A DNA stretch of 64,000 bases from an uncultured Prevotellaceae bacterium (GTDB lineage: Bacteria; Bacteroidota; Bacteroidia; Bacteroidales; Muribaculaceae). Location of the stretch: NCBI GenBank assembly GCA_900318205.1, contig ONJS01000010.1, positions 1 to 64,000 on the forward strand. Reading direction: 5' to 3'. Each line of letters starts with the position of its first letter. Position 1 is the stretch's first letter. A program made the translations under genes and the position numbers. Of the stretch, positions 28,156 through 47,711 are shown piece by piece. The notes beneath the pieces were generated by a model, which was not told the origin of the DNA, searched no databases, and was given only the letters and a program-made list of their open reading frames with translations.

Positions 28156-28181
28156 AAAAACAACTCAAACAACTTAAACAA
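28156..28181. repeat. 26-bp terminal inverted repeat, left copy (9-mer units)
   Basis: Units AAACAACTC and AAACAACTT follow each other and are continued by AAACAATTT. All 26 bases are repeated exactly, inverted, at 28649-28674. This copy sits 5 nt after the stop codon side of the GxxExxY gene. Confidence 0.85.
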
Positions 28182-28186
28182 TTTTA

Positions 28187-28639
28187 TTAGTGACTTGGAA
28201 TTGATCTTTTGAAGTTGTAAAATACATCTCCATCAATGGTGATAATATTCTTTGTCTCTTGGTCATAAAAATATCGTTCAAGATCATAATTCCTTGGGGC
28301 AAAATTTACAATGATTCCGCAAGGCTTATTCAAGAGCCGCATGTAATTAAAAAGTTGAGCACGATGTGCAGAAATCAATTCACCCACAGACTTACATTCA
28401 ACAATGATGTTTTCTTTGCATAAAAAATCAATGCGAAATACAGCTTGCATTTCCTTTCCATGGTAGCGGGGATGGAATGATTGTTCTCGTATGAATGGTA
28501 TTCCTTGCTCTTCAAGTTGGAATTGCAGCCCCTCTTGATAACAAGATTCATTAAGTCCTGCACCCAATTCAGCGTGAACCTCGTGAATTGCTCCAACAAC
28601 ATCATACATATAACTCTTTAAAGATTTTATGTCGAGCAT
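28187..28639 (-). CDS. GxxExxY-family protein (PD-(D/E)XK-nuclease-like)
   Basis: The 150-residue protein carries the family motif at 28-34 (GLNESCY). A nuclease-type core follows: Asp71 in RIDFLC, then Glu81 and Lys83 in IIVECKS, the pattern of PD-(D/E)XK metal-dependent nucleases, plus Gln95 in RAQLFNYM. Nuclease activity has to my knowledge not been settled for the family. There is no signal peptide. The gene is more AT-rich than its neighbours and is enclosed by perfect 26-bp inverted repeats made of 9-mers, the upstream copy ending about 10 nt before the ATG. It interrupts the space between lacI and the phosphatase gene and has no functional link to either. Confidence 0.85.
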   Translation of the reverse strand: MLDIKSLKSYMYDVVGAIHEVHAELGAGLNESCYQEGLQFQLEEQGIPFIREQSFHPRYHGKEMQAVFRIDFLCKENIIVECKSVGELISAHRAQLFNYMRLLNKPCGIIVNFAPRNYDLERYFYDQETKNIITIDGDVFYNFKRSIPSH

Positions 28640-28648
28640 AAATAATTG

Positions 28649-28674
28649 TTGTTTAAGTTGTTTGAGTTGTTTTT
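28649..28674. repeat. 26-bp terminal inverted repeat, right copy (9-mer units)
   Basis: Units TTGTTTAAG and TTGTTTGAG precede TTGTTTTT. The sequence is the exact reverse complement of 28156-28181. On the minus strand it forms the 5' leader of the GxxExxY gene. Confidence 0.85.
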
Positions 28675-28702
28675 AAAAAAAATGTGAGTTGTTTTTTGGG
28701 GG

Positions 28703-29734
28703 TTAGGGGTGGCGGGTGGTGCCGCGGATGACGAGGCGGGTTTTGACGATGCGTTTCTCGGCATGGTCGGCGGGAAGGGTGCCCTCCACAAGGCCGATGA
28801 GGATGTCGGCGGCCTCTTTACCTACCTGGGATCCGCGCTGCTCTACTGTCGTCAGCATCGGGTCGCACACCGTGGCGCGGAAGCCATTGGTGAATCCGCA
28901 GATGCTCACCTCGTCGGGCACATTGTAACCTAACCGTTTCACCACTGTGAGGATACCGATGGCGGTCTCGTCGTTGACAGCAAAGAATGCGTCAGGCCTG
29001 TTCTCCATGCGCATCATTGCGGGCGTGATGCGCTCGGCGTCGGCACGGTTGTCACAGATGCGCACCAGCGACTCGTCAAGCGTCAGTCCATGCTTGTACA
29101 GGGCGTCGCGGTATCCATTGAAGCGGTTTTTGGCAATAATCATGTTCATTGATGCGCCGAAGAAGGCGACTCGCTTGCAGCCCGTCTCTATCAGGTGGGA
29201 CACGGCATTCAAGGTGCCCATATAATCATCGACCACGACGCGACTGGCATTCAATGCGGGACAGATGCGGTCATAGAAGACCAGCGGAACACCGGCTTGT
29301 TCCAAGTGCTCAAAGTGGTCATAGCGTTCGGTGTCCTTGGCTTGGGAAACGATGATGCCGCACACCTTGTTCTTGAGCATTGATTCACAGATCTGTACCT
29401 CACGCTGGTAGCTCTCGTTACTCTTGGCCACCAGGATGTGGTAACCGCGTGCCGAGGCCTCGGACTCAATACCGTCAAGGATGGAGGAAAAGTAGTAGTG
29501 TACCAGTTCGGGGACGATCACACCGATGGCACGTGACGGGTTGCGGCGGCTGTGGCGCAACTGCTCTGCAATGACGTTGGGGAAATAATTGTGTTCGCGG
29601 GCAAATTGCTGAATCGCCTGGCGGCGTTCCTTGGATATGCTGGGGCTGTCGCTCAACGCTCGCGACACGGTAGCCACCGACACGCCCAGCTCACGGGCGA
29701 TGTCCTTCATCGTCAGTTGTTGCTTGTCATTCAT
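28703..29734 (-). CDS. LacI-family transcriptional regulator of the starch locus
   Basis: The 343-residue protein has an N-terminal helix-turn-helix (about 8-32, MKDIARELGVSVATVSRALS) and hinge helix, then a periplasmic-binding-type ligand domain (about 62-335; IGVIVPELVHYYFSSILDGI, CGIIVSQ, GFTNGFRATVCDPMLTTVEQ). It is divergent from the susC operon, and a near-palindromic LacI-type operator at 29824-29837 lies between them. The same operator recurs before the amylase gene and the transporter-malQ-pulA operon, so this protein most likely controls the whole starch regulon, with a maltooligosaccharide or derivative as ligand (inference). The operator would overlap the -33 region of its own promoter, which suggests autoregulation. 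Confidence 0.9.
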   Translation of the reverse strand: MNDKQQLTMKDIARELGVSVATVSRALSDSPSISKERRQAIQQFAREHNYFPNVIAEQLRHSRRNPSRAIGVIVPELVHYYFSSILDGIESEASARGYHILVAKSNESYQREVQICESMLKNKVCGIIVSQAKDTERYDHFEHLEQAGVPLVFYDRICPALNASRVVVDDYMGTLNAVSHLIETGCKRVAFFGASMNMIIAKNRFNGYRDALYKHGLTLDESLVRICDNRADAERITPAMMRMENRPDAFFAVNDETAIGILTVVKRLGYNVPDEVSICGFTNGFRATVCDPMLTTVEQRGSQVGKEAADILIGLVEGTLPADHAEKRIVKTRLVIRGTTRHP

Positions 29735-29797
29735 CTTGTGACGGAAATTTTATGAGTTGGATTATACTTGAACATGAGCTATAATTGCTATACGGGG

Positions 29798-29805
29798 CGA
29801 AGATA
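29798..29805 (-). promoter_or_regulatory. Candidate -7 box of the LacI-type regulator gene
   Basis: The minus strand reads TATCTTCG, one mismatch from TAnnTTTG, about 64 nt before the start codon. The starch operator would fall on its -33 region. Confidence 0.35.
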
Positions 29806-29823
29806 AAGCAAAAAATCGAACTA

Positions 29824-29837
29824 CGCAAACGATTGCA
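29824..29837. promoter_or_regulatory. LacI-type operator 1 (susC operon)
   Basis: CGCAAACGATTGCA differs by one base from the copy at 37683-37696. Its centre is 62.5 bp from the first base of the susC -7 box. Confidence 0.75.
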
Positions 29838-29892
29838 TTTATTTAAACAAAAATTTAACATTATAAAAAAAGGAAAAAAGATATAATATCTC

Positions 29893-29900
29893 TATTTTTG
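29893..29900 (+). promoter_or_regulatory. -7 box of the susCDEF operon
   Basis: TATTTTTG matches TAnnTTTG. The leader to the susC ATG is about 120 nt. No good -33 element is visible, as expected for an activator-dependent promoter. Confidence 0.6.
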
Positions 29901-30028
29901 CCTTGTTTTAATTGCGGTAAAAGCCCCAATTAGGACCTCGCTGTGATTGGACAGCCTTGCTGGCTTTGCTTAACTTCAAGTATTAAATATTTGATTACCA
30001 ATATAATATTAACTTTAAAAATTTTAAA

Positions 30029-33000
30029 ATGAAGCAGGTAAACATCAGAATTCCGTTTAGGATTCTTACCCTCGTGATGGGACTGTTCCTGTCACTGGGA
30101 GCCTATGCACAGATTACTGTGAATGGCGTTGTGAAGGATGCTACCGGCGAGCCTGTCATCGGCGCGAGTGTTCGTGTCGTCGGCACGCAGCAGGGTACAG
30201 TTACCGACTTTGACGGTCTCTTTACCCTCGAAGGCGTGCCCCAGGGCGCCAAGCTCCAGATTTCGTCGATTGGCTATGACGCCCAGGAGGTGACAGCAGC
30301 CAGTGACGTGGTAGTAACACTTGCCGAGAGCAGCCAGATGCTCCAGAATCTGGTGGTCATCGGTTATGGTGTCGTTAAGAAAAAAGACTTGACCGGTTCG
30401 GTCGCTTCTCTCAAGCCCGATGAGAAGAACCACGGTCTGGTTGTTAACGCACAGGACATGATCCAGGGTAAGATTGCCGGTGTGAACGTGACCAGCGGTG
30501 ACGGTGTGCCTGGCGGCGCTCCCACCATCCGCATCCGCGGTGGTTCGTCACTGAACGCATCCAACGACCCCCTCATCGTGATTGATGGTCTGGCTCTGGA
30601 CCGCCAGGGTGTCAAGGGTGTTGCTAACCCCTTGTCTATGGTCAATCCCGCCGACATCGAGAGCTTCACCGTCTTGAAAGACGCATCGGCCACCGCCATC
30701 TATGGTAGCCGTGGTTCTAACGGTGTCATCATCATCACCACCAAGAAGGGTCGCAAGGGTCAGGCTCCGCGCGTGAGCTACAATGGTAGCGTCGGCTTCT
30801 CGACTGTTAAGAAGACGCTCGGTGTGCTCAATGCCGACGAGTACCGCAACTTCATCTACAACTATTATGGTGAGGAAAGCGATGCCGCTAAGTTGCTTGG
30901 CAACGCCAACACCGACTGGCAGAAGGAGATATACCGCAATGCCATGACGACCGACCACAACGTGACCGTTTCGGGTGGCTTGGCCAATTTGCCTTATCGC
31001 GTGAGCGCTGGTTATACCTATCAGGATGGTGTCTTGAAGACCTCCAACTTCCAGCGTGCCACTGTCAGCGCAACATTGAACCCCTCGTTCCTGAACGACC
31101 ATCTGAATTTCAACATCAATGGTAAATTCATGTATGCCAAGAACCGTTATGCTAATGGCTCGGCCATTGGCGAGGCTGTTCGCATGGATCCCACCCAGCC
31201 CATTATGGTGGCTGAAGGCTTTGATAAATTCGGTGGCTACTTCACTTGGACCGACAAGGGTGATCTGGGTGATCCCAATTTCCCGCTGGTTCCCAACCGT
31301 AACACGGCCAAGAACCCTGTCGCTCTGCTCAACGAGAAGGACGACCGCGCCAACTCCTACGACTACATGGGTAATGTCGAGGTGGACTATCAGATCCATG
31401 GCTTTGAGGACCTGCGCTTGCACATGAACCTCAGCGGTGACTGGAGCAACGGTAAGCAGAACACCTACTACGCTCCCTGGGGTCCGACAAACTTCTACTA
31501 TGGCAATGACGGCTTCACCAAGGAGAAAAAGTACAACTTGACCTATTCAGCCTATGCTCAGTACTTCAAGGACTTCACCGAGACCCAGCACTTCGACATC
31601 ATGGGCGGTTATGAGTGGAGCCACAATAAATACTGGGGCAACTCTTATTACACTGGCTGGTATCCTGCCACTAACGAGACCACACTGGAAGATGGTACTC
31701 CCGCCGCAGGCAAGGCCTACAAGCCCAGCATTGGCGAGTGGAAGCAGGAGAACTACCTGGTATCGTTCTATGGCCGTGCCAACTATATCGGTTGGGACCG
31801 CTATCTGTTGACCTTCACTGTTCGTCGCGACGGTTCGAGCCGCTTCAAACAGCACTGGGCAACATTCCCCTCGGTAGCATTAGGTTGGAAGATCAGCGAG
31901 GAATCCTTCTTGAAGGACCTCGGCTGGATGGATGAACTCAAGCTCCGTCTGGGTTGGGGTAAGACCGGTCAGCAGGATGGTATCGGTAACTACAACTACT
32001 TTGCTAGTTATAATGTGAACACCAACAACACCGACGGTCGTTATCCTCTCGTGGGCCTGAACGACGAAGGTCTTCTCTATCGTCCCGATGCTTTCAACTT
32101 GGATTTGAAGTGGGAGACCACTACGACCTACAATGCCGGTCTTGATTTCATGTTCTTCCATAACCGCTTGAGCGGTAGCTTTGATTACTATTACCGCAAG
32201 ACCACTGACCTGATCAATACCGCTACTGTATCGGCAGGTTCTAACTTCCGCAACCAGGTGCCCCAGAATATCGGTTCACTGGAGAACCGCGGTTTTGAGG
32301 CTTCGATTACCGTTCGTCCCATCTCGACCGAGGACTGGCAGTGGGAGCTCACCGGTAACTTTACCTATAACAAGAACAAGATCACTGAGTTGACAGGTGA
32401 GTCAGCACTCGTTAGAACGGGTGGCATCTCGGCAGGTACCGGTAACACCGTACAGGCCCATGCTGTTGGTCACCCTGCAAGCTCGTTCTATGTCTATCAG
32501 CAGGTCTATGGCGAGGACGGCCGACCCTTGGAGGGCGTCTTTGTTGACCGCAACTCCGATGGTCAGATTTCGGAGGACGACCTCTATTTCTACAAGAGCC
32601 CGGCAGCTCCCTACACCGCTGGCTTGAGCTCACGTCTCCAGTACAGGAATTGGGACCTCGGTTTCAACCTGCGTGCCAACTTCGACAACTATGTTTACTG
32701 GGATAGAGGCGCTGGTTATTCTAACGTCGCAAAGCGTTATGACAGCTCATTCGGCTATCTCCAGAACGTGATTCCCCAGGCTGTTGCTAACGGTTGGACG
32801 ACCTATGACAAGGTGGTCAGCGACTACTTCGTGCGCAACGCTTCGTTCCTCAAGTGTGACAACATCACGCTGGGTTACAGCTTCGCCAACCTCCTGCACA
32901 GGGGTAACTGGCAGGGTATGAATGGCCGCGTTTATGTAAGTGCTACCAACGTGTTCACCATCACCAAGTATGATGGCCTTGATCCTGAGGTCTTCGGTGG

Positions 33001-33064
33001 TATTGACGGTGGCATTTATCCCCGTCCCTTCACAGTTCAGCTCGGTCTGAACATGAATTTCTGA
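30029..33064 (+). CDS. susC: SusC-type TonB-linked starch oligosaccharide transporter
   Basis: The 1011-residue outer-membrane protein has a signal peptide (about 1-27, ending SLGAYA), a carboxypeptidase-regulatory-like domain (VNGVVKDATGEPVIGASVRV), a plug with IRIRGGSSLNASNDPLIVID and DASATAIYGSRGSNGVIIIT, and a long barrel ending in Phe (FTVQLGLNMNF). Substrate assignment rests on its operon (SusD, two SusE/F-type lipoproteins) and on the shared operator with alpha-amylase, malQ and pullulanase genes. It would import maltooligosaccharides across the outer membrane using TonB energy, capped by SusD. It is clearly different in sequence from the SusC protein at 23080-26427. Confidence 0.93.
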   Translation: MKQVNIRIPFRILTLVMGLFLSLGAYAQITVNGVVKDATGEPVIGASVRVVGTQQGTVTDFDGLFTLEGVPQGAKLQISSIGYDAQEVTAASDVVVTLAESSQMLQNLVVIGYGVVKKKDLTGSVASLKPDEKNHGLVVNAQDMIQGKIAGVNVTSGDGVPGGAPTIRIRGGSSLNASNDPLIVIDGLALDRQGVKGVANPLSMVNPADIESFTVLKDASATAIYGSRGSNGVIIITTKKGRKGQAPRVSYNGSVGFSTVKKTLGVLNADEYRNFIYNYYGEESDAAKLLGNANTDWQKEIYRNAMTTDHNVTVSGGLANLPYRVSAGYTYQDGVLKTSNFQRATVSATLNPSFLNDHLNFNINGKFMYAKNRYANGSAIGEAVRMDPTQPIMVAEGFDKFGGYFTWTDKGDLGDPNFPLVPNRNTAKNPVALLNEKDDRANSYDYMGNVEVDYQIHGFEDLRLHMNLSGDWSNGKQNTYYAPWGPTNFYYGNDGFTKEKKYNLTYSAYAQYFKDFTETQHFDIMGGYEWSHNKYWGNSYYTGWYPATNETTLEDGTPAAGKAYKPSIGEWKQENYLVSFYGRANYIGWDRYLLTFTVRRDGSSRFKQHWATFPSVALGWKISEESFLKDLGWMDELKLRLGWGKTGQQDGIGNYNYFASYNVNTNNTDGRYPLVGLNDEGLLYRPDAFNLDLKWETTTTYNAGLDFMFFHNRLSGSFDYYYRKTTDLINTATVSAGSNFRNQVPQNIGSLENRGFEASITVRPISTEDWQWELTGNFTYNKNKITELTGESALVRTGGISAGTGNTVQAHAVGHPASSFYVYQQVYGEDGRPLEGVFVDRNSDGQISEDDLYFYKSPAAPYTAGLSSRLQYRNWDLGFNLRANFDNYVYWDRGAGYSNVAKRYDSSFGYLQNVIPQAVANGWTTYDKVVSDYFVRNASFLKCDNITLGYSFANLLHRGNWQGMNGRVYVSATNVFTITKYDGLDPEVFGGIDGGIYPRPFTVQLGLNMNF

Positions 33065-33099
33065 TAACTAATGACAATAGAACTTCAATATTCTTAGAT

Positions 33100-34806
33100 A
33101 TGATGAACTTAAGTTTTTTCAAAAAGATAATGCTTGGCGCAACCTGCCTGCTCGCTACAGGATTGAGTTCTTGTGTCAATGACCTGGATGTTACTCCGAT
33201 CGACCCGAGTACTACTATGGAGGCCGACGAGGTTGCTCTGTTCACCAAGTGCTATGCCACTATGGCCCTTGCTGGTAACACTGGCGCCAACGGCGATTGC
33301 GACATCGACCGTCTGGATGGCGGTACCACAGGTTTCGTTCGCCAGCTCTGGAATGCCAATGAGTTGACCACCGACGAGGCCATCTGTGCTTGGGGTGACC
33401 CTGGTATTCCCGGTTTTAACTATAACCAGTGGGATGCATCCCATCCCATGCTGGAGGGTTTCTATAACCGCCTCTACTCGAGTATTTCCTATTGCAACCA
33501 CTATCTCGAGTTGTTCTCTGGCGTTGACAAGACGCGTGAGGCCGAGGTGCGCTTCCTGCGCTGCCTGTACTACTATCACTTGATGGATTGCTACGGCAAT
33601 GTGCCTTTTGCCACCACAATTCTCATGACCTCGCTCCCCGAGCAGATTCAGCGTGCTGACCTGTTCAAGTGGATTGAGGAGGAATTGCTGGCCGTGAAGG
33701 ATGATATGATGACTCCCGCAGCTCGTAAGAGCACTGACAATGGTTATGGCCGCGCCGACCAGGATGCTGCCAATCTGTTGCTGGCCCGTATGTACTTGAA
33801 CGCTGAGGTTTATACCGGCACTGCCCGTTGGTCCGACGCGCTGAAGTATGCCAAGATGGTCATCGATGGTCCCCACAAGCTTTGGACTAACGGCACCGAC
33901 CAGTGGAGCGCTTACCAGATGCTCTTTATGGGTGACAACGGTGAGAATGGTGCTTCTCAGGAAGCTATCCTTCCCTTGTTGCAAGATGGCTTGAAGACCA
34001 CCAGTTGGGGTACTACCCTGTTCCTGATGGCTTCGACCTGGAAGAGCGACATGGATGAGAGTCTCTATGACCTTGGTAACGGTGACGAGGGCTGGTTGCC
34101 CACTGGTACCGTGGATAACGATCCCGACGATGGCATTGACACCGTTCTGATTCGCAGCTATGCTTATGGCACCACCGAGTTCTGGGCTGGTAACCGTGCA
34201 CGTTTCCAACTGCTTCAGAAATTCTTCCCTGGTGGTACTGTGCCCAGCGTGAATATCCAGAATATGGTTGAGGCTGCTGGCGATGACCGTGCCTTGTTCT
34301 ACGGCAAGGGCCGCACCGCTAATGTGGACAATCCCAGTGAATATACCTCGGGTTATGCTGTTGGTAAGTACCGCAACACCTACTCGACGGGTGCAAATTC
34401 ACACAGTACACAATTTGTTGACGCTGACTACTTCCTGATGCGTTCGGCCGAGGCTTACCTCATCGCTGCCGAGGCTGATGCCCGCCTGAATGGTGGTCAG
34501 ACGACTCCCGAGGGTGCCGGTTACATCAATGCACTGCGCAACCGTGCCAACACTTGGACTGTAAGCCAGTACTCTCTGGATCAGATTCTTGACGAGCGTT
34601 CACGCGAGTTGTATTACGAGGGCTTCCGCCGCACCGACCTTATCCGTTATGGATACTTTGGTGGTGACAGGAGCGGTGCTTATCTGTGGGAGTGGAAAGG
34701 CGGTGCCCAGAATGGTGCCCCGATTCCCGCATTCCGCAACCTGTTTGCTATTCCTGCCGAGGACGTGAATGCCAATCCCAAGCTCGTTCAGAACCCAGGT
34801 TATTAA
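33100..34806 (+). CDS. susD: SusD-type starch-binding surface lipoprotein
   Basis: The 568-residue lipoprotein has a signal ending at Cys25 (LLATGLSSC) followed by VNDLDV; the start may be either of two adjacent ATGs. SusD-family features are the tetratricopeptide-like helices (EVRFLRCLYYYHLMDCYGNV), RSAEAYLIAAEADARLNGG and the C-terminal LDQILDERSRELYYEGFRRT DLIRYG signature, read with its natural continuation. It begins 35 nt after susC. By analogy with Bacteroides SusD it should cover the SusC channel and bind helical starch through aromatic residues, which cannot be located by eye here. Confidence 0.92.
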   Translation: MMNLSFFKKIMLGATCLLATGLSSCVNDLDVTPIDPSTTMEADEVALFTKCYATMALAGNTGANGDCDIDRLDGGTTGFVRQLWNANELTTDEAICAWGDPGIPGFNYNQWDASHPMLEGFYNRLYSSISYCNHYLELFSGVDKTREAEVRFLRCLYYYHLMDCYGNVPFATTILMTSLPEQIQRADLFKWIEEELLAVKDDMMTPAARKSTDNGYGRADQDAANLLLARMYLNAEVYTGTARWSDALKYAKMVIDGPHKLWTNGTDQWSAYQMLFMGDNGENGASQEAILPLLQDGLKTTSWGTTLFLMASTWKSDMDESLYDLGNGDEGWLPTGTVDNDPDDGIDTVLIRSYAYGTTEFWAGNRARFQLLQKFFPGGTVPSVNIQNMVEAAGDDRALFYGKGRTANVDNPSEYTSGYAVGKYRNTYSTGANSHSTQFVDADYFLMRSAEAYLIAAEADARLNGGQTTPEGAGYINALRNRANTWTVSQYSLDQILDERSRELYYEGFRRTDLIRYGYFGGDRSGAYLWEWKGGAQNGAPIPAFRNLFAIPAEDVNANPKLVQNPGY

Positions 34807-34831
34807 TCCACTCACTTAAGAATACAGTAAT

Positions 34832-36052: not shown

Positions 36053-36063
36053 TTAATAACAGT

Positions 36064-36108
36064 TCTGACGGATGGGCCGTGGCCCGTGCGACGGCCCACC
36101 CAGTCAGA
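36064..36108 (+). terminator. Strong intercistronic hairpin between the SusE- and SusF-type genes
   Basis: Nested arms TCTGAC/GTCAGA and TGGGCCGT/ACGGCCCA enclose a 10-nt GC-rich loop. There is no T-run after it, so partial termination or protection of the upstream transcript end from exonucleases are both possible. Confidence 0.55.
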
Positions 36109-36131
36109 TATAATATCGATACATAGTTATT

Positions 36132-37598: not shown

Positions 37599-37623
37599 TC
37601 ACGAGCGATTAACTTGATTATCC

Positions 37624-37657
37624 CAGCGGGGGCGTGCCGTCAGGCGCGGCCCCGCTG
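37624..37657 (+). terminator. Terminator of the susCDEF operon
   Basis: CAGCGGGG and CCCCGCTG form a perfect stem with a GC-rich 18-nt loop that can pair further; TCGTTTATAG follows. Confidence 0.7.
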
Positions 37658-37682
37658 TCGTTTATAGTCACTTTCACACCTC

Positions 37683-37696
37683 TGCAAACGATTGCA
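37683..37696. promoter_or_regulatory. LacI-type operator 2 (alpha-amylase operon)
   Basis: TGCAAACGATTGCA; centre 63.5 bp from the first base of the -7 box at 37753. Confidence 0.8.
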
Positions 37697-37752
37697 CGGT
37701 GAATATGTGTTGAGTTTTTTTGATCAGATGTTTGGAATTGCCGATATTTTGG

Positions 37753-39875: not shown

Positions 39876-39892
39876 AGATTTCATAATCAGAT

Positions 39893-41263
39893 ATGAACAA
39901 AACCATAAGATTGTTTTGTGTGTCATTGGCGCTGGTGTTTTCGGCATTTAGCGCCAATGCCGTTAATCAATATGACGTGAACGTCGACGGTGAAGTGAAC
40001 ATCGCCGATGTCAACGCTGTGATTGATGCGATATTGAGCAATAGCGCCACTGCCTCATGTGATGTGAACGGTGACGGTGAGGTAAACATCGCTGACGTGA
40101 ATGCCCTCATTGACTATATCCTTACAGGAGGTGGTGAAGAGCAGCCCTATGATGGCCCGGTAGTGGGTGGTGACATATCGATGTTGACCAAGTATGAGGC
40201 TCACCAGCGTATGGCGCAATCGCGCTATAACATCACCTGGGCCCATTACTATGACCAGTATGGTGCGGTTATTGACGATGTCATCACTTGGACCAAGCAA
40301 CAGGGCTGGAACGCGGCACGCGTGCGCCTGTTTTTCAATCCCGCCAATGCGTCGGCAGCCGATAAGGGGCAGGGTGTCATCCAGAACCTGGACACTGTCA
40401 AGGTGCTGGGCCAGCGCATTAAGGCTGCAGGGATGCAGTTCATGCTTGACTTCCATTACAGCGACAGCTGGGCCGACCCTGTAAAGCAGTTTACCCCTGC
40501 CGATTGGGCTACACTTGACGATGCGGCTCTGGTACAGAAGATTTATGAATACACCCGTGACTGCCTGAGTGAGCTCAAGGCTGCAGGTGCCGAACCCGAT
40601 TATATCCAGACGGGTAACGAGATCAGTTACGGTATGCTGTGGGGACCCGTTGGAACGCCCGACTCCCAGCTCAAGAAGTGCTATGTCGGTAACGAGGCCA
40701 ACTGGGGACGTTTCACCGATTTGCTCAAGGCTGCCGGTCGTGCTTGCCGTGAGGTGTGTCCCAATGCCAAGATTATCCTGCACACCGAGCGCGTTGCCAA
40801 GCTCAACATCCTGCTCAATTTCTATAACCAGATGCGTGACAAGCATGTGGACTATGACATCATCGGCTTGAGTTATTATCCTTACTTCCACGGTAACTTG
40901 TCAACTCTGGCAACTGCGCTCAACAACGTGAGCAATACCTATCAGGACAAGGATATCATGATTGTCGAGACTGGCTATAGCTACAAGTATAAAGTGGGGG
41001 ATCAGGACTTCTCCTCAACATGGCCGTTGACCCTTGAGGGACAGCGTAAGTACACATCCGACCTGATTGCCAAGTTGGCGCCCTATGCCCGCGTGAAGGG
41101 CCTCTTCTGGTGGTTCCCCGAGGCCAACGAGTATGGCTTGGGCGGTAACAACTGGAGCGTGCTGCACGTCAATGACGCTTGGTATAATGCCGGACTGTGG
41201 AACCACGAGACAGGACGTGCTACTCCAGCACTGTATGAACTGAAGAATTTCCTGCAGAAGTGA
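39893..41263 (+). CDS. Secreted GH53 endo-beta-1,4-galactanase with N-terminal dockerin pair
   Basis: The 456-residue protein has a signal peptide (about 1-23), then two dockerin-like halves directly at the mature N terminus (about 28-82), and a GH53 barrel (about 95-456). GH53 residues are Glu in YIQTGNEISYGMLW (acid/base) and Glu in IMIVETGYSY (nucleophile). GH53 enzymes cut beta-1,4-galactan side chains of pectin, so its place behind the amylase in a starch operon is unexpected; joint use of plant cell-wall and starch granule material is one explanation. The dockerins are at the opposite end from those of the amylase, and the coding DNA of the two dockerin pairs is closely similar. Confidence 0.9.
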   Translation: MNKTIRLFCVSLALVFSAFSANAVNQYDVNVDGEVNIADVNAVIDAILSNSATASCDVNGDGEVNIADVNALIDYILTGGGEEQPYDGPVVGGDISMLTKYEAHQRMAQSRYNITWAHYYDQYGAVIDDVITWTKQQGWNAARVRLFFNPANASAADKGQGVIQNLDTVKVLGQRIKAAGMQFMLDFHYSDSWADPVKQFTPADWATLDDAALVQKIYEYTRDCLSELKAAGAEPDYIQTGNEISYGMLWGPVGTPDSQLKKCYVGNEANWGRFTDLLKAAGRACREVCPNAKIILHTERVAKLNILLNFYNQMRDKHVDYDIIGLSYYPYFHGNLSTLATALNNVSNTYQDKDIMIVETGYSYKYKVGDQDFSSTWPLTLEGQRKYTSDLIAKLAPYARVKGLFWWFPEANEYGLGGNNWSVLHVNDAWYNAGLWNHETGRATPALYELKNFLQK

Positions 41264-41282
41264 TTGTGGATAAACAAATGTG

Positions 41283-41318
41283 GGGTCTTATGGCTTTTCA
41301 GCCGTAAGGCCCTTTTTT
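41283..41318. terminator. Terminator between the GH53 and methyltransferase genes
   Basis: GGGTCTTATGGC pairs with GCCGTAAGGCCC (one mismatch) over 6 nt and is followed by TTTTTT on the plus strand. It serves the amylase-GH53 operon. Confidence 0.8.
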
Positions 41319-41949
41319 ATGGCTTTATGCCTGTGACGCAGATGAAGTGGCGCTCTTCATCATGGCGTGACTTGATGTCGGTGAAGCCGGCCTCAGTAAG
41401 ATACTCAGTAAGTTCCTCAATCGTGTAGATGCGCATGTGGCCGACGAGCTTGGCCCATTTATGCCCTTCGGGATCAACGCCGTCGGTCTCATTGGCGATG
41501 ACGACCTTGCCGCCAGATTTGAGCACGCGGTGAATCTCGGAGAGGCATTCACTGAATGAGGGCCAATAATATACCGTTTCAAATGCGGTAATCAGGTCAT
41601 GGGTTTCTTTGAGTAGAGGTAACAATTTGGCATTCCCGCCAACGATTTTGCACCTTCCGGCAGCAATGGCTTCCTTGTTGACCCTGAGAGCCATATTGAT
41701 GGCCACTTGTGAGAAGTCCACACCAGAGACTTTACTATCGGGAAACTTATCAAGCATCCGGGCTACATTGGCACCGCCGCCACAGCCGATATCAGCAATA
41801 GAGGCATCGCTGTTGAGTTGAACATCCTTGAGTGCCCACTCGGCGAGGGTTCCGTGGCGCTTACCATTCATGCGGTAAACAACATAGCGTCCTAGTAGTC
41901 CCTCTGGAAGCCTGAAATTTGCATAATATGTCCTTCTTGGTGATTTCAA
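41317..41949 (-). CDS. Class I SAM-dependent methyltransferase (copy 1)
   Basis: The 210-residue cytoplasmic protein has SAM motif I ADIGCGGGANVARML (about 71-85), an acidic motif II residue in VSGVDFS, and motif IV/post-I region around DLITAFETVYYWPS, as in the Methyltransf_11/25 group. Substrate is unknown. It is paralogous along its whole length to the next gene (42132-42767), including the C-terminal end SRHDEERHFICVTGIKP. It converges on the GH53 gene, sharing the terminator. The start could not be confirmed by a promoter box. Confidence 0.85.
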   Translation of the reverse strand: MKSPRRTYYANFRLPEGLLGRYVVYRMNGKRHGTLAEWALKDVQLNSDASIADIGCGGGANVARMLDKFPDSKVSGVDFSQVAINMALRVNKEAIAAGRCKIVGGNAKLLPLLKETHDLITAFETVYYWPSFSECLSEIHRVLKSGGKVVIANETDGVDPEGHKWAKLVGHMRIYTIEELTEYLTEAGFTDIKSRHDEERHFICVTGIKP

Positions 41950-42072
41950 GATGCATTGAATTTAATATATTTGCAAAATTACGCCGATTATACCGAATAG
42001 AGTATAACTCAAAGCTTAAATAATGTTAATCTCCTTCCCATGGGATTTAATAGCAGACAGCACATGACTTCT

Positions 42073-42098
42073 ACTGCCGTGAGTTGCTTAGCGGCAGT
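42073..42098 (-). terminator. Hairpin after methyltransferase copy 2
   Basis: ACTGCCG and CGGCAGT form a 7-bp stem; a second small stem (CGTAA/TTACG) lies closer to the stop codon. No T-run, so termination is uncertain. Confidence 0.4.
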
Positions 42099-42131
42099 TC
42101 GTAATGATTAAGGACGTTACGACGGGGGATG

Positions 42132-42767
42132 TTATGGTTTCTTGGCCGTCACGCAGATGAAGTGACGCTCCTCATCATGGCGTTGCTTGATGTCGATAAA
42201 GCCGACTTTGGCGAGAATGTCGCTAATGTCTTCTATGGAATAGACCAGCATTGCGATGGATTTTTCCAACTTTTTGTGTTCAGGATCAAGTCCATCCATT
42301 TCGTTGGCGATGACACAAGTGCCGCCAGGCTTGAGTACCCTGAATATCTCTTTCAAGCCAAGTTCCAGCGAGGACCAGTAATAGACGGTTTCAAAGGCGG
42401 TCACGAGATCATATATCTCCTTGGCTCGTGGCATCTGGACTGCGTTGCCACCCACGATATAGCATTTCTTGTCAACGATAGCGCGGTAGTTGTAGTCGTT
42501 GGCTTCTTCAAGGGCGAGGGTGGAGTAGTCCATGCCTGTTACAATGCCTTCAGGGCACATCTCAAGCATGCGTGCTACATTGGCACCGCCGCCGCACCCC
42601 ACGTCAAGCACTTGAGCATCCTTTTTGATTTCAAGATCGGCAAAAACCCATTCTGGCAATGCAGCATGCTGCTTGCCATTCATCGCTTTGATGACGCGAT
42701 AGCCCCAAAAGCCTTTGGGATTTCTTGAACGCTGGTAGTGCTTACGTAGGCTCATATTATGATACAA
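42132..42767 (-). CDS. Class I SAM-dependent methyltransferase (copy 2)
   Basis: The 211-residue protein has motif I VLDVGCGGGANVARMLEMCP, motif II in GMDYSTLALEEA and the DLVTAFETVYYWSS segment. It is roughly half identical to copy 1 by eye, strongest around motif I and at the C terminus (QRHDEERHFICVTAKKP), so the pair is a tandem duplication that has diverged. The start may be the second ATG at 42755 (MSLRKHYQRS). Substrate is unknown. These two genes split the starch locus and have no evident link to it. Confidence 0.85.
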   Translation of the reverse strand: MYHNMSLRKHYQRSRNPKGFWGYRVIKAMNGKQHAALPEWVFADLEIKKDAQVLDVGCGGGANVARMLEMCPEGIVTGMDYSTLALEEANDYNYRAIVDKKCYIVGGNAVQMPRAKEIYDLVTAFETVYYWSSLELGLKEIFRVLKPGGTCVIANEMDGLDPEHKKLEKSIAMLVYSIEDISDILAKVGFIDIKQRHDEERHFICVTAKKP

Positions 42768-42862
42768 TCATTCGAATTGCAAAAGTACATATATATTTTT
42801 AATTCAACAATAACTGTAATCAATAAATATCACCATTTGTTGTAGGATGTTGTAATTATTAT

Positions 42863-42899
42863 TTACAACCCCCTGAAGCAAATAGTCAGGGGGTTGTAA
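42863..42899 (-). terminator. Terminator of the SusA-like gene
   Basis: TTACAACCCCCTGA pairs perfectly with TCAGGGGGTTGTAA over 9 nt, directly after the stop codon on the minus strand, and is followed by an AT-rich run. Confidence 0.75.
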
Positions 42900-42908
42900 G
42901 GATTGTTC

Positions 42909-44774
42909 TTAGAAGTCCAGGACGAGCGTGCCGCGTGCAGGGAGCGAAATCACGCCGTCGGCGAGGCTGACAGTTTTGCCAGTGGGCACATCGCGTGCGA
43001 CGGTAGCGTTACCAAATACCTCGTGATAGCGTTCGAGCTTCATTTCGCGCGGTTGAGTGGTGCCGTTGATGATGGTAACGGCATGCCTGTTACCCAGAGT
43101 GCGGGCGACGACATAGATGCCGTCCTTGGGAATGAACTGCGTCATCTTGCCCTTGGTGATGACGGCATTGCCCTGGCGCCAGTGCAACAGGGCACTCAGC
43201 CAGTTGAACATGTCGTTTTGTTCAGGGGTGCGGCCTTCGGCTGTGAAGGCATTGTGCGGGTCACCGGGGAAGCCGCCGGGGAAGTCCTTGCGTACGTTGC
43301 CGTCGGTCACCTGCTTGGTGCCGTTCATCAGCACCTCGGTGCCGTAGTACAGCTGTGGGATGCGCTTGATAGTGAGCAGCAGGGCAAGGGCCTGTTTCAG
43401 GGCTGCCACATCCTGGCCGTTGCGCAGGAAGCGGTCGGTATCGTGGTTCTCGATAAAGGCCATCACGCTCGACGGGTTGGGGTAGAGGTAGTCGTGGCAC
43501 AGGCTGTTATACACGCGGTTGTAGCCGCGCCACCAGCCGTCAGTTTCCTCGTGCTTGGCACTATCAATTTTCTCGTAGAAGGAGAAGTCCATCACGGTGG
43601 GCAGGTAGCTCTCGGGCTTGCCCATCTTATTGCCTTTTTGCCATGCAGCGGTATAGGCAGGATTCTCGACCCAGGTCTCGCCCACGACGTTGAAGTTGGG
43701 ATACTCGGTGTTGAGCACCTTCATCCAGCGTGCCATAGCGTCGGCATAGGCATACGGGTAGGTGTCCATGCGGATGCCGTCGATGCCTGCGGTCTCAATC
43801 CACCAGATGCTGTTCTGGATCAAGTAATTCATCACGTGCACATTGTGGTGGTTCAAGTCAGGCATTGAGGGGACGAACCAGCCCTCGACGGTCTCCTTAA
43901 GGTCAATCTCGCTGGCATAAGGATCCATCACGGGGGTGAGCTTGTAGCTCGTCTGCAGGTAATTGTTCTTGTAGTCTGGCTGGTTGAACCAGTCATGGGT
44001 GGGCATGTCGTTGAGCCAAGGGTGGTGGGCGCCGCAGTGGTTGAAGATCATGTCCATGACCACCTTCAGCCCGCGACCATGGGCCTCGTCACACAGGCGG
44101 CGATACTCCTCATTGGTGCCGAAGCGCGGATCCACCTTGTAGTAGTTGGTCGTGGCATAGCCGTGATAGGTCGAGTGGTTGTGGCCATCGGGCGAGTTGT
44201 TTTCCAATACGGGAGTGAACCAGAGGGCGGTCACTCCAAGTTGGTTGAAGTAGTCCAGGTGCTGGCGGATGCCCTCAATGTCGCCACCATGGCGCAGGCT
44301 GGGCTGCGTCCTGTCGTTCTTGTAGGCCTCCATGCCTGCAAGCTGGTTGTTGGCGGGGTTACCGTCGGCAAAGCGGTCAGGCATGAGCATGTAGAGCACA
44401 TCGGCATTGGTGAATCCCATACGCTCACTGCCGCGTTTCTCACGGGCCTTGAGTTGGTACTTCACAGTCTTCTTGCTCTTGCCCTGCTGGAACTTGAGTT
44501 CCATCGTGCCCGGCTGGGCATGACGGGTATCCATGTAAATCAACAGATAATTGGGCGAATCTACTCTCACCACGCTGTCGATGGTCACTCCGGGATATTG
44601 TGTGCTCACTTGAGCGGTGCCGATGCCGGTGCCATACACCATCAGTTGCACGCTGGGCACACTGTTGATGCCCACAAACCAGTCTGTCGGCTCAATGCGG
44701 TCCACATTGACCTTAGCTGCCTGGGCAGTCAGTATTCCCGCAGCCAAGGCAAATAATAAAAATATCTTCTTCAT
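42909..44774 (-). CDS. susA: SusA-like GH13 neopullulanase / cyclomaltodextrinase
   Basis: The 621-residue protein has a signal peptide (MKKIFLLFALAAGILTAQA), an N-terminal cyclomaltodextrinase-type beta domain (about 22-120, RIEPTDWFVGINSVPSVQLM), the GH13 barrel (about 125-520) and a C-terminal beta domain. Catalytic residues are Asp in GIDGIRMDTYPY, Glu in NVVGETWVEN and Asp in FIENHDTDRF. It should cut imported maltooligosaccharides or pullulan in the periplasm. The frame extends upstream to 45029 without a signal peptide, but that part overlaps murF and is rejected; ATG 44774 lies 31 nt after murF. No starch operator is found before it, so it may be read through from murF. Confidence 0.92.
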   Translation of the reverse strand: MKKIFLLFALAAGILTAQAAKVNVDRIEPTDWFVGINSVPSVQLMVYGTGIGTAQVSTQYPGVTIDSVVRVDSPNYLLIYMDTRHAQPGTMELKFQQGKSKKTVKYQLKAREKRGSERMGFTNADVLYMLMPDRFADGNPANNQLAGMEAYKNDRTQPSLRHGGDIEGIRQHLDYFNQLGVTALWFTPVLENNSPDGHNHSTYHGYATTNYYKVDPRFGTNEEYRRLCDEAHGRGLKVVMDMIFNHCGAHHPWLNDMPTHDWFNQPDYKNNYLQTSYKLTPVMDPYASEIDLKETVEGWFVPSMPDLNHHNVHVMNYLIQNSIWWIETAGIDGIRMDTYPYAYADAMARWMKVLNTEYPNFNVVGETWVENPAYTAAWQKGNKMGKPESYLPTVMDFSFYEKIDSAKHEETDGWWRGYNRVYNSLCHDYLYPNPSSVMAFIENHDTDRFLRNGQDVAALKQALALLLTIKRIPQLYYGTEVLMNGTKQVTDGNVRKDFPGGFPGDPHNAFTAEGRTPEQNDMFNWLSALLHWRQGNAVITKGKMTQFIPKDGIYVVARTLGNRHAVTIINGTTQPREMKLERYHEVFGNATVARDVPTGKTVSLADGVISLPARGTLVLDF

Positions 44775-44805
44775 TTTGGTTATTGAGTTGGTTGTCTTCA
44801 AAAGG

Positions 44806-46122
44806 TTACAGGAGTTCGGGCAGTTGGAACAGGCGGGTGCCGTTGGAACCCTTGATGAGGATGTAGCAGCCCTCGGGACGGTTGGCGGCGATGGCGGCTT
44901 TGACCTCTTCCACGTCGTCAAACTTGCGGTAAGGGCAGTCGATGTCCTTGAATTCCTTGCCCACGAGCCATACTTCGTCAAAGGGGCAGTTTGCCAGTTT
45001 CTCCACGACACGGTGGTGCTCCTCAGCACTGCTGTCGCCCAACTCGCGCATCTCGCCCAGGATAGCCATCTTGGGAGATACCTCCATCATGCTGAAGTTG
45101 TCGAGAGCTGCTGCCATTGATGTCGGGTTGGCATTATAGGCATCCACGATGAGGTGGTTGTGCTCGGTTTCAGTAAGTTGGGAACGGTTGTTGGCAGGAA
45201 TATAGTTCTCTATCGCATGGCAAATCTGTTCGGGGGTCAATTCAAAGTGCAGGCCCACGGTGACTGCTGCCAGCACGTTGTCGAGGTTATAGCTGCCGAT
45301 GAGGTGGGTTGCTACTTCATGCCACTCGCCATCCTGTCCATTTTTCCACTTCAGACGCAGGAACGGGTCGCAGGCAATGATTTTGCCATACACTTGAGCA
45401 TCGGGCTTGTTTTCGTCTTGGGTATAATATTCGGCCTTGACGCCTTTGGGCAGAATACCCATTAGGTACTCGTTGTCGGCGTTGATAAAGATGACGCTGC
45501 CCTCCCGTTTTGCTAGATTGTCATAGAGTTCACCCTTGGTGTGAATGACGCCCTCCAGTGAACCGAAACCCTGCAAATGGGCCTTGCCTACGTTGGTGAT
45601 CAGGCCGCAGGTCGGCTCAGCCGTCTCGGCAAGCGTCTTGATGTCACCTGGGTGGCTCGCTCCCATTTCAACGACAGCAATCTCGTGCATGACACTAAGG
45701 CGGAACAAGGTCTTGGGCACGCCGATGTCGTTATTGAAATTGCCCTCGGTCGCCATCTCGTCGTAGCGTTCGGCGAGGACGGCACGCACGAGTTCCTTGG
45801 TTGTAGTTTTGCCGTTTGTTCCTGTGATGGCAATGACGGGGATGTCAAAGCGGCGGCGGTGCTCGCGTGCCATGTCTTTGTAGGCTTGCAGCGTGTCGGG
45901 AACAAGTATCATCTGCTTGTTGCCGTGATAATCGTTATATACCTGCTCATCGCTCACGATGGCGACGGCGCAGCCCTTGTCAAGTGCTTGGGCTGCAAAT
46001 TGGTTTCCGTCAAATGATTCACCCTTCAAGGCGATGAAAATGCTGCCCTCAGGGCAATCGCGGCTATCGGTAGTGATAACAGGATGTTGCTCGTAGATTG
46101 CGTAAAGTTCTTTGCTGTCCAT
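44806..46122 (-). CDS. murF: UDP-N-acetylmuramoyl-tripeptide--D-alanyl-D-alanine ligase
   Basis: The 438-residue cytoplasmic enzyme adds D-Ala-D-Ala to the UDP-MurNAc-tripeptide, the last cytoplasmic step of the peptidoglycan stem. Mur-ligase features are the ATP loop AITGTNGKTTTKE (98-110), the VEMGASHPGDI segment, the NVGKAHLQGFGS region and the DAYNANPTSM motif with the C-terminal domain. It is divergent from the D-Ala-D-Ala ligase gene that supplies its substrate, with 74 nt between the start codons and facing -7 boxes, so both steps can be controlled together. Confidence 0.95.
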   Translation of the reverse strand: MDSKELYAIYEQHPVITTDSRDCPEGSIFIALKGESFDGNQFAAQALDKGCAVAIVSDEQVYNDYHGNKQMILVPDTLQAYKDMAREHRRRFDIPVIAITGTNGKTTTKELVRAVLAERYDEMATEGNFNNDIGVPKTLFRLSVMHEIAVVEMGASHPGDIKTLAETAEPTCGLITNVGKAHLQGFGSLEGVIHTKGELYDNLAKREGSVIFINADNEYLMGILPKGVKAEYYTQDENKPDAQVYGKIIACDPFLRLKWKNGQDGEWHEVATHLIGSYNLDNVLAAVTVGLHFELTPEQICHAIENYIPANNRSQLTETEHNHLIVDAYNANPTSMAAALDNFSMMEVSPKMAILGEMRELGDSSAEEHHRVVEKLANCPFDEVWLVGKEFKDIDCPYRKFDDVEEVKAAIAANRPEGCYILIKGSNGTRLFQLPELL

Positions 46123-46144
46123 AATCTTATCAGTTATTTTGCCA

Positions 46145-46183
46145 CAAAATTACTGAAAAAGCCGATTATTTTATATAATTTTG
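46145..46183. promoter_or_regulatory. Facing -7 boxes of murF and ddl
   Basis: TAATTTTG on the minus strand at 46145-46152 (murF) and TAATTTTG on the plus strand at 46176-46183 (ddl) are identical and 23 nt apart, so the two promoters overlap. Confidence 0.6.
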
Positions 46184-46196
46184 CACCCGATTTTTA

Positions 46197-47216
46197 ATGT
46201 GTGTGCAAAAAATGAATTCAACCAAGAGAACCATTGCCATCGTCTGTGGTGGCGACTCATCAGAATATGAGGTTTCCCTGCGTTCGGCACAGGGGCTTTT
46301 CGATGCGTTTGACCATGACCGTTACCACGTTTATATCGTCATGATCAGGAAGAATGACTGGCATGTGAACCTGCCCGACGGTCAGGAATCGGTCATCGAC
46401 AAGAATGATTTCTCGTTCTTGAAGGATGGTGAAAAGATCTGTTTTGACTATGCCTATATCACCATTCATGGCACTCCGGGCGAGAACGGTGTGTTGCAAG
46501 GCTATTTTGACATGATCGGTCTGCCTTACTCGACTAGCAACGTGCTGGTCGAGGCACTGACTTTCCACAAGTTCGCATTGAACAACTACCTGAAGGCCTT
46601 CGGCTGCTCGGTGCCCGATAGTATCCAGGTGCGTCGCAGTGTGGCTCATGGCTGGACAGCCGAGAAGGTCAAGGATTATCTGGGTATGCCTTGCTTTGTT
46701 AAACCGACCGCCGACGGCTCGAGCTTCGGTGTGACCAAGGTGAAGAGTTGTGACCAGTTGGACGATGCCATGGAGTTTGCTTTCAAGCAGTGCGACAATG
46801 TGATGATTGAGCGTTTCCTTGATGGAACCGAGGTCACTGTGGGCTGTTATAAGACCAAGAAGAAATCTGTCGTATTCCCTGTTACCGAGGTTGTGACCGA
46901 CAACGAGTTCTTTGACTACGATGCCAAGTACAACGGTCAGGTCGAGGAAATTACGCCTGCCCGCATCAGCGATGAACTGACCGCCGCTCTGCAGGCCGAG
47001 ACGTCACGCATCTATGACATCCTGCACTGCAACGGCATCATCCGCATCGATTTTATCATTACCAAGAATCCCGATGGCACCGACCACATCAACTTGCTGG
47101 AGGTCAACACCACCCCAGGCATGACCGTCACCAGCTTCATCCCTCAGCAAGTCCGTGCCGCTGGCCTCTCCCTCACCGACGTCCTCACCGACATCGTCGA
47201 GAACCAGTTCCAGTAA
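46197..47216 (+). CDS. ddl: D-alanine--D-alanine ligase
   Basis: The 339-residue enzyme (or 334 from the ATG at 46212, which fits the family better) joins two D-alanines using ATP. ATP-grasp features are the N-terminal GGDSSEYEVSLRSAQGL, the HGTPGENGVLQGYFDMIGLP substrate loop, PCFVKPTADGSSFGVTKV for nucleotide binding, and the metal-binding end RIDFIITKN and LLEVNTTPGM. It supplies D-Ala-D-Ala to MurF, encoded divergently. A good terminator follows. Confidence 0.95.
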   Translation: MCVQKMNSTKRTIAIVCGGDSSEYEVSLRSAQGLFDAFDHDRYHVYIVMIRKNDWHVNLPDGQESVIDKNDFSFLKDGEKICFDYAYITIHGTPGENGVLQGYFDMIGLPYSTSNVLVEALTFHKFALNNYLKAFGCSVPDSIQVRRSVAHGWTAEKVKDYLGMPCFVKPTADGSSFGVTKVKSCDQLDDAMEFAFKQCDNVMIERFLDGTEVTVGCYKTKKKSVVFPVTEVVTDNEFFDYDAKYNGQVEEITPARISDELTAALQAETSRIYDILHCNGIIRIDFIITKNPDGTDHINLLEVNTTPGMTVTSFIPQQVRAAGLSLTDVLTDIVENQFQ

Positions 47217-47218
47217 AA

Positions 47219-47246
47219 AACAAGAGCCCAAAAGGCTCTTGTTTTT
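47219..47246 (+). terminator. Terminator of ddl
   Basis: CAAGAGCC pairs with GGCTCTTG over 5 nt and is followed by TTTTTG; the upstream side has AAAAAA, so it can also act in reverse. Confidence 0.85.
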
Positions 47247-47281
47247 GATTAGTGATTAGTGATTAGAGATTAGAGATTAGT
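47247..47281. repeat. Five-unit 7-mer array, left border of the four-helix-bundle gene
   Basis: GATTAGT, GATTAGT, GATTAGA, GATTAGA, GATTAGT in exact phase. It contains the stop codon and last codons of the four-helix-bundle gene and is repeated inverted at 47657-47684. Confidence 0.85.
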
Positions 47282-47641
47282 GAGGGTGGCGGCTTTGCTG
47301 GATCGCAATCCGCTAATCAGTTTTGATGTGTTGAAGATTTGGGGCTTGATTTGATTAAAATCTTCTTCTGAAATATAACCCAGGTCAAGTGCAATTTGCA
47401 GTTGGCAATATACTTCCATGACAGAACCAAAAGCTATTTCCAGGAAATGGATTTGTTCTTTAATGGCTATTCGGCCATTGCCTTCTGCAATGTTTGACGG
47501 AATAGAAATCACAGCACGGCGTAACTGATTGCACAGCGCAAAGCGCTCATCTTCGGGGAATTTCTTGAGTAACCGATAGACGGCTACTACCAATTTCCTG
47601 GATTCTTGCCATGCATTTAATCGCTCAAATTGATATTCCAT
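47270..47641 (-). CDS. Four-helix-bundle protein (23S rRNA intervening-sequence protein family)
   Basis: The 123-residue product reads MEYQFERLNAWQESRKLVVA at the start and has the family's helix pattern: VYRLLKKFPEDERFALCNQL, RRAVISIPSNIAEGNGR (the most conserved part) and FLEIAFGSVMEVYCQLQIA. Related proteins occur inside 23S rRNA intervening sequences and as accessory proteins (Avd) of diversity-generating retroelements, but here neither an rRNA gene nor a reverse transcriptase is present. A longer frame begins with GTG at 47665 inside the right-hand repeat array; the ATG at 47641 aligns better with the family. The last codons and stop lie inside the left-hand array, so the repeats form part of the gene. 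Confidence 0.85.
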   Translation of the reverse strand: MEYQFERLNAWQESRKLVVAVYRLLKKFPEDERFALCNQLRRAVISIPSNIAEGNGRIAIKEQIHFLEIAFGSVMEVYCQLQIALDLGYISEEDFNQIKPQIFNTSKLISGLRSSKAATLTNL

Positions 47642-47656
47642 CTTGTAGTAATCTTC

Positions 47657-47684
47657 ACTAATCACTAATCTCTAATCACTAATC
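47657..47684. repeat. Four-unit 7-mer array, right border of the four-helix-bundle gene
   Basis: ACTAATC, ACTAATC, TCTAATC, ACTAATC: on the minus strand these are GATTAGT/GATTAGA units, inverted relative to 47247-47281. A perfect palindrome at 47686-47711 follows directly. Confidence 0.85.
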
Positions 47685-47685
47685 T

Positions 47686-47711
47686 ATCCTGCACAACTAG
47701 TTGTGCAGGAT
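47686..47711. terminator. Perfect 26-bp palindrome spanning the pullulanase stop codon
   Basis: ATCCTGCACAACT is followed without loop by its exact complement. The last codons and TAG stop of the pullulanase gene lie inside it. It may end the transporter-malQ-pulA transcript, or be a target-site-like element next to the 7-mer array. Confidence 0.65.

Follow-up and report, generated by a model that had tools for sequence, protein, structure and literature searches.

The 64,000-nucleotide stretch analysed here, referred to as the window (positions 1 to 64,000 of contig ONJS01000010.1, assembly GCA_900318205.1), comes from an uncultured Prevotellaceae bacterium and holds two small minus-strand genes of unrelated families, each bordered by inverted arrays of short tandem units. 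A preliminary description made from the sequence had placed both genes between such arrays, and profile searches confirm the families to which it assigned them, GxxExxY (GXE) and four-helix bundle (4HB). The parts of the two elements are as follows.

28153-28181, plus strand: left arm of the GXE element, 9-mer units AAACAACTC, sequence TTCAAAAACAACTCAAACAACTTAAACAA; matches the right arm without gaps in inverted orientation (score 53)
28187-28639, minus strand: GXE gene, 150 amino acids, PD-(D/E)XK-type nuclease family (PF13366, TIGR04256)
28648-28676, minus strand: right arm of the GXE element, 9-mer array inverted relative to the left arm, sequence GTTGTTTAAGTTGTTTGAGTTGTTTTTAA
47246-47283, plus strand: left arm of the 4HB element, 7-mer TGATTAG, 5.4 copies, overlapping the 3′ end of the gene; score 55 against the right arm
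47270-47665, minus strand: 4HB gene, 23S rRNA IVP family, 131 amino acids from GTG (PF05635, TIGR02436, 2gsc)
47655-47684, minus strand: right arm of the 4HB element, inverted 7-mer TCACTAA, 4.3 copies; inverted match to the left arm

The window GXE protein matches PF13366 (4.8e-31, 108 bits against a cut-off of 22) and TIGR04256 (4.4e-34, 117.3 bits against 35), and the window 4HB protein matches PF05635 (1e-36, 125.8 bits against 33.8) and TIGR02436 (5.4e-34, 116.7 bits against 24). Residues E31, Y34, D71, E81, K83, Q95 and Y99 are invariant in alignments of 5 and 11 GXE proteins and correspond to what we take to be the D...ExK and QxxxY motifs; judged from its sequence, GXE carries the residues of a PD-(D/E)XK nuclease. 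The closest solved relative of the 4HB protein is 2gsc (XCC0516, presumably a Xanthomonas protein; 1.3e-24), and its likeness to the Avd accessory protein of diversity-generating retroelements is weak (8.1e-6, below the cut-off of the model). The matches of the two window genes, which belong to PF13366 and PF05635, include no transposase model, and Rfam gives nothing at gathering score in window positions 26000-50000. The arrays had been described as lying within a few bases of the gene ends; inverted arrays do border both genes, but the 131-residue 4HB open reading frame (ORF) overlaps both arms rather than adjoining them, with its stop in the left array and its GTG start in the right array (an inner ATG start gives 123 amino acids).

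The association of these families with inverted arrays is specific. In 464 kb of the same genome, comprising the 64-kb window and a further 400 kb, 141 tandem segments yield three distinct gene-spaced inverted pairs with a score of at least 28, namely those of the two window elements, scoring 55 and 53, and a weak pair at 37. In this genome, inverted arrays flank all 5 GXE genes and the 3 over-cut-off 4HB genes, each with its own unit and with arm scores of 31-59. Across 66 family loci, made up of these 8 and of 58 others that are mostly the best match per top-ranking genome rather than a random draw, 55 reach an arm score of at least 30 (25 of 32 for 4HB, 30 of 34 for GXE), compared with 1 of 330 control genes taken from the same DNA as the own-genome loci. 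The single high-scoring control gene (39) encodes 151 amino acids at window positions 5922-6377, and matches nothing in Pfam or NCBIfam at 0.001; in our reading its arms look terminator-like rather than like arrays. The two arms of an element resemble each other far more than they resemble the arms of other elements, with own-pair medians of 48.5 (4HB) and 41.5 (GXE) against cross-element medians of 18 and 19 within the family.

Starting from arrays rather than genes leads to the same families. A scan of 1.264 Mb from four genomes, not fully blind in that 800 kb from the three other genomes were contigs chosen from family-gene match listings, found 9 gene-spaced inverted array pairs with a score of at least 28, against 1 and 3 such pairs in offset controls. 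Five enclose a family gene (2 4HB, 3 GXE, one GXE gene being broken by a stop), in line with the enrichment that the preliminary description had proposed to look for, and the other four comprise 2 without an ORF of more than 70 codons, 1 with an unrelated 154-codon ORF and 1 with what we read as an acyl-CoA-dehydrogenase-like gene. The idea of one architecture shared by unrelated folds is supported, and it extends to a third family, 4helix_suffix (TIGR04258), which shares the inverted-array pattern. Among the four 4helix_suffix-like genes of the own genome, placed in the family by resemblance, three have arm scores of 33-37; the remaining one reaches only 17 and has a 10-mer array on a single side.

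An element has one and the same unit in its two arms, other elements have other units, and the unit sequence varies together with that of the protein. With rows of arm score below 30 and duplicates dropped, array similarity and protein identity are correlated with a Mantel r of 0.617 for 63 GXE and 0.582 for 25 4HB elements (0 of 1000 permutations each), and with an r of 0.545 for 44 GXE elements when the copies at the PafA site described below, other than that of the window, are left out (0 of 1000 permutations). The covariation partly reflects common descent of whole elements. The best period is 7 in 25 of 32 4HB loci and 9 in 27 of 34 GXE loci, as counted by eye with weak arrays included. 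Recognition of array structure rather than of a fixed sequence, by one mechanism common to both genes, had been suggested earlier; a unit that covaries with the protein (Mantel 0.55-0.62) and a family-specific period speak against the former, no single shared mover emerged in favour of the latter, and each protein type may instead serve its own array type. Protection of the genes by such a mechanism, proposed as an alternative to mobilisation, finds no support in these data.

By profile searches, the window 4HB element lies between D-Ala-D-Ala ligase (ddl) and pullulanase genes, and the GXE element between an alkaline-phosphatase-like gene, termed PafA in what follows, and a gene for a LacI-type regulator, and the contents of both sites vary within the genus. 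At the ddl site, 7 of 30 congener loci hold 4HB with 7-mer arrays, 6 hold a longer 4HB relative with 9-mer arrays, 2 have arrays without a gene, and the remaining loci are truncated, are missing the neighbour or contain other genes. One of the longer proteins was matched by profile to TIGR04258 and the others were assigned by resemblance; in one genome (L141 in G023) the 4helix_suffix gene at this site is reversed relative to the other species. At the PafA site a GXE gene, again assigned by resemblance, is present in 20 of 30 loci with three unit types, and several other loci contain a gene-less hairpin, lone arrays or remnants. Several orthologous sites likewise carry a gene unit in one species and a gene-less foldback in another, sometimes with a different unit (L046 against L074 of G000, L025/L034 against L075 of G000, and the PafA site in G006), and in G000 and G025 two different foldbacks occupy an orthologous site. 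A genus-level search for target duplications gave 125 comparisons of 133 elements with a syntenic place lacking the element; a wider gap limit gave 132 classed pairs, of which the 18 outside the PafA site were inspected. No clean empty site with a duplication was found among the comparisons listed, in which the flanks have diverged.

Inverted arrays are also dispersed through these genomes without a gene between them. At a score of at least 28 there are 23 gene-less foldbacks in the 1.264 Mb and 0 in each of three offset controls, and at a score of at least 26 they amount to 21-24 per Mb in each of four clade genomes. These pairs resemble the repeats beside the genes, a likeness judged by eye for most of them, and in this the elements parallel REPIN/RAYT systems. 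Arrays of the 8-mer CGCTAAGN occur in 1-94 copies in 29 of 61 genomes and are absent from the other 32, and the reversed pattern occurs once over all 61. Their number, which includes arrays beside the gene itself, is 27-72 (median 56) in the 10 genomes with the matching GXE subtype and 1-94 (median 17) in the other 19 (p = 5.3e-4), the subtype being delimited at 63% identity, a cut-off set after the list had been seen, and 2 of the 10 genes being broken or split. In genomes with a single family, G039 (4HB only) and G038 and G029 (GXE only), gene-less arrays in the sampled DNA number 0, 0 and 1, too few for a comparison of periods.

A further motif, GCATCCGC, lies within 250 nucleotides of 13 of 34 GXE and 4 of 32 4HB genes and beside neither window gene, and was rejected on these grounds as a defining part of the element. 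Its own-genome copies outside genes are, by eye, mostly at the end of an array, and it often stands at the inner end of arrays with differing units (L074, L075, L082, L085 and the 13 GXE loci), as if it were a common joint. At L081:19418-19665 an 8-mer foldback seemingly encloses a complete 9-mer foldback, giving nested gene-less elements. In the window itself a weak gene-less 9-mer foldback, GACAACCTTGACAAC...GTTGTTCAAGGTTG, lies at 1509-1556 downstream of a cytidine deaminase gene. A gamma-carbonic-anhydrase-like gene (18943-19458) has a CTAGA-type 9-mer array (18880-18941) just past one end and a short array of another kind (19470-19504) at the other, the two not looking inverted relative to each other, and five degenerate 78-bp repeats at 11250-11678 are probably coding.

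Of 101 related genomes, 73 and 82 carry the two families, and for 4HB the architecture extends far beyond this group. Searching public genomes with an alignment of 4HB proteins yielded 80 named loci, the best 80 of 586, of which 78 could be scored; 47 reach a score of at least 30, compared with 9 of the 171 genes that neighbour them and 2% of 400 cross pairs. These 47 include Acidobacteria, Nitrospirae, Desulfobacteraceae, Firmicutes, Cyanobacteria, Bacteroidetes, Cloacimonadota, Phycisphaerae and others, according to record titles, many of which denote metagenome bins, and their periods are 7 (24 loci), 8 (15) and others (8). Ten plasmid 4HB records, taken from 26 with a match and all cyanobacterial, have inverted heptamer or octamer arrays in every case, with scores of 29-60 (8 of 10 at least 30).

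Cyanobacterial plasmids also provide the evidence for movement. In conjugative plasmids that are 97-98% identical over the region, an array-4HB-array unit is present in Trichormus variabilis and Scytonema and absent in Tolypothrix PCC 7601 and Nostoc carneum, the net gain being 428 bp in Trichormus and 414 bp in Scytonema. Empty sites have a single GTAAT and filled sites have two (two records of each), an exact 5-bp duplication that encloses array, gene and array together. Presence and absence alone leave the direction of change unproved, and the target duplication favours gain over precise loss. At this one site, and for 4HB only, the whole unit has evidently moved; the insertion-like behaviour earlier ascribed to both genes holds for 4HB to this extent, and GXE elements may move in the same way. 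Relatives of the same site, assessed by eye, include a decayed copy on the Nostoc C052 plasmid and a gene-less hairpin on a Brasilonema plasmid. At seven other plasmid sites the 4HB gene is likewise present or absent, with less clean junctions. Some 4HB elements of cyanobacterial plasmids (L281, L284, L286) lie inside CRISPR operons, in the orders cas6-4HB-cas4 and cas10-4HB-cmr3, and several relatives lack them.

The favoured interpretation, to which we give a probability of about 0.6, is that these units are foldback-type mobile elements whose protein is specific for its own type of array and assists in copying or moving the hairpin unit, gene-less copies being non-autonomous. Each element would consist of a left array, one small gene and an inverted right array, the gene encoding a 4HB protein, a 4helix_suffix protein or a PD-(D/E)XK nuclease (GXE). 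As the arms are mirror images, a single strand of the element, whether DNA or RNA, can form a hairpin, and such a hairpin is the probable intermediate. The protein, by itself or together with host enzymes, would recognise arrays of its own kind and promote copying or movement of the hairpin, thereby carrying out or guiding the process; recognition of its own array would make array and protein evolve together, as RAYT transposases do with REPINs. The 4HB family has, to our knowledge, no catalytic activity and would hence act by binding and recruiting. Gene-less copies, in which two arms are joined through a short loop, would represent the non-autonomous form and would be moved by the same proteins.

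Several results weigh against foldback-type mobile elements of this kind. A clean target duplication is found at 1 of the 8 plasmid sites compared; among the others, L282 has a 3-bp ATG overlap, L289 has TTCTA by eye only, L290, L287 and L285 resolve no duplication and leave 31-175 nucleotides of the empty site unmatched, depending on the pair, and the junctions at L281 and L284 could not be resolved. Neither a transposase nor a reverse transcriptase was seen in the units, with no genome-wide transposase search made. Of the scorable 4HB loci among the best 80 of 586, 31 of 78 score below 30, and among 8 plasmid records two GXE genes from outside the order of the window organism lack inverted arms, so that the claim for GXE rests on that order; at one of them, between fabD and fabG on a Sphingomonas plasmid, a CGCGAAGN-like array (L389:715-794) lies upstream only, its unit resembling the CGCTAAGN of the window's genus. 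The excess of gene-less arrays in gene-rich genomes (29 in 1.264 Mb from four genomes against 1 in 1.136 Mb from four genomes with 0-2 family genes, at a score of at least 26) is confounded because the gene-poor genomes form another clade. Six genomes without the matching GXE subtype carry 36-94 CGCTAAGN arrays, and of the PafA-site unit types A, B and C only A fits the array counts (p = 0.0099, 0.59 and 0.15). The flanks also match in direct orientation at a score of 30 in 4 of 32 4HB and 8 of 34 GXE loci, and in the 1.264 Mb direct array pairs are at least as frequent as inverted ones (24 against 18 gene-spaced and 47 against 38 close by, at a score of 28 before merging), although in the own-genome scan of 464 kb they are fewer (2 against 5 at a score of 28). 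Repetitive coding DNA and long arrays, in our view, probably account for the direct pairs; the direct-repeat control being less clear, offset controls were used instead. Finally, 41 of 67 close pairs of elements (at least 70% identity; the pairs overlap, and one is comparable on one side only) share a neighbour gene within 1.5 kb and 26, which speak for the favoured interpretation, do not, indicating that elements are often inherited in place and are also found elsewhere.

Inheritance in place is what would be expected if the hairpin arrays came first, as long-lived intergenic loci in which genes are passengers brought in and lost by ordinary recombination and arms are kept alike by gene conversion. 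Orthologous sites that hold a gene in one species and a gene-less foldback in another, or two different foldbacks as in G000 and G025, fit this account as well. Against it stand the covariation of unit and protein, which persists without the PafA-site copies other than that of the window, and the dependence of the period on the family, 4HB periods being 7-8 across phyla in 39 of the 47 loci of score at least 30 among the best 80 of 586. The duplication at the clean plasmid site, which encloses array, gene and array as one, is also hard to reconcile with passenger genes, and we consider this explanation unlikely. Somewhat less likely still is a function in RNA, in which the arms would form a double-stranded stem cut by RNase III, the insert being removable or the transcript self-regulating and DNA movement incidental. 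The predicted folds of both window elements pair 29 of the first 44 bases with the last 60, and mismatches within arms lean towards G.U over A.C on the sense strand (67 against 41), a lean so small that RNA-level selection was not adopted on this ground as too weak to decide. A precedent is the intervening sequence (IVS) of Coxiella 23S rRNA, for which the available sections of PMC4990558 describe an S23 ORF, a 28-bp terminal stem, tandem heptamers of varying copy number upstream of the ORF and excision by RNase III in vitro. However, the window copies are intergenic, where nothing needs excising, and gene-less copies are numerous too.

Microsatellite slippage with chance pairing near AT-rich genes would account for the abundance of single arrays (758 tandem segments in the 1.264 Mb) and for direct pairs being as many as inverted ones. 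It is contradicted by the offset controls, the control genes (1 of 330), the neighbouring genes (9 of 171) and the own-genome scan, and by arms that match within and not between elements; chance and slippage were rejected on these grounds as highly improbable.

As foldback-type mobile elements, the units are best read as REPIN/RAYT-like in logic and related to 23S rRNA intervening sequences, the latter being the nearest relative and the former the nearest in logic. Eukaryotic foldback (FB) transposons have long inverted ends that are likewise built of short tandem units, and are much longer than the elements described here. The cyanobacterial short heptamer repeats known as STRR, like the heptamer repeats of Xanthomonas and Beggiatoaceae, agree with the present arrays in unit length, and the nearest solved 4HB relative is XCC0516. 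RAYTs are tyrosine transposases of the Y1/HUH class, whereas the proteins here are a helical bundle or a PD-(D/E)XK nuclease with no tyrosine transposase in the gene-bearing unit, and the repeats are 7-9-base tandem arrays rather than single palindromes. Features in common with REPIN/RAYT, in the available sections of PMC3116915, are gene-less inverted pairs between genes, one protein per repeat type, a gene mostly inherited in place and repeats adjoining the gene. With the 23S rRNA intervening sequences the elements share the 4HB family (S23/IVP, PF05635) and terminal inverted repeats around the ORF. An IVS lies within a 23S rRNA gene, whereas the present copies are found inside operons or between genes of ordinary kinds (ddl and pullulanase, and no 23S rRNA gene, flank the window 4HB element), mostly have arrays in both arms, possess gene-less relatives and share their architecture with the unrelated GXE family. 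The available part of PMC4990558 proposes a mobile origin for intervening sequences, which were identified more than 25 years before 2016, and calls their origin unclear.

Among the heptamer repeats, GGGAATC of Xanthomonas forms 70 and 75 inverted pairs in two genomes (PMC4692102) and TAACTGA is the repeat of Beggiatoaceae (PMC4679880); in their available sections these papers name no partner protein family, the terms 'four helix' and 'S23' being absent from both and 'GxxExxY' from the latter. The available part of the Anabaena 90 genome paper (PMC3542288) treats miniature inverted-repeat transposable elements (MITEs) and gives no match for S23 or four-helix; neither it nor PMC8934634 contributes anything on these elements. 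A literature search of titles and abstract beginnings, with preprints and most subscription papers outside its range, returned no work linking these families to inverted arrays in general.

A wider proposal can be made tentatively, at slightly less than even odds: the elements may represent a prokaryotic foldback class with ends made of 7-10-base arrays, at least three gene families and no known transposase, whose gene-less offspring would be the source of hitherto unexplained 7-9-base repeats between genes in cyanobacteria, Bacteroidota and possibly Xanthomonas, with 23S rRNA intervening sequences as one niche. If true, two widespread families of unknown function would acquire a common role, linked to the 23S rRNA intervening sequences, and it would become directly testable how short tandem repeats arose in many bacterial genomes. 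It would also mean that a small helical bundle or a nuclease can drive or guide a transposition-like process in which no recognised transposase takes part.

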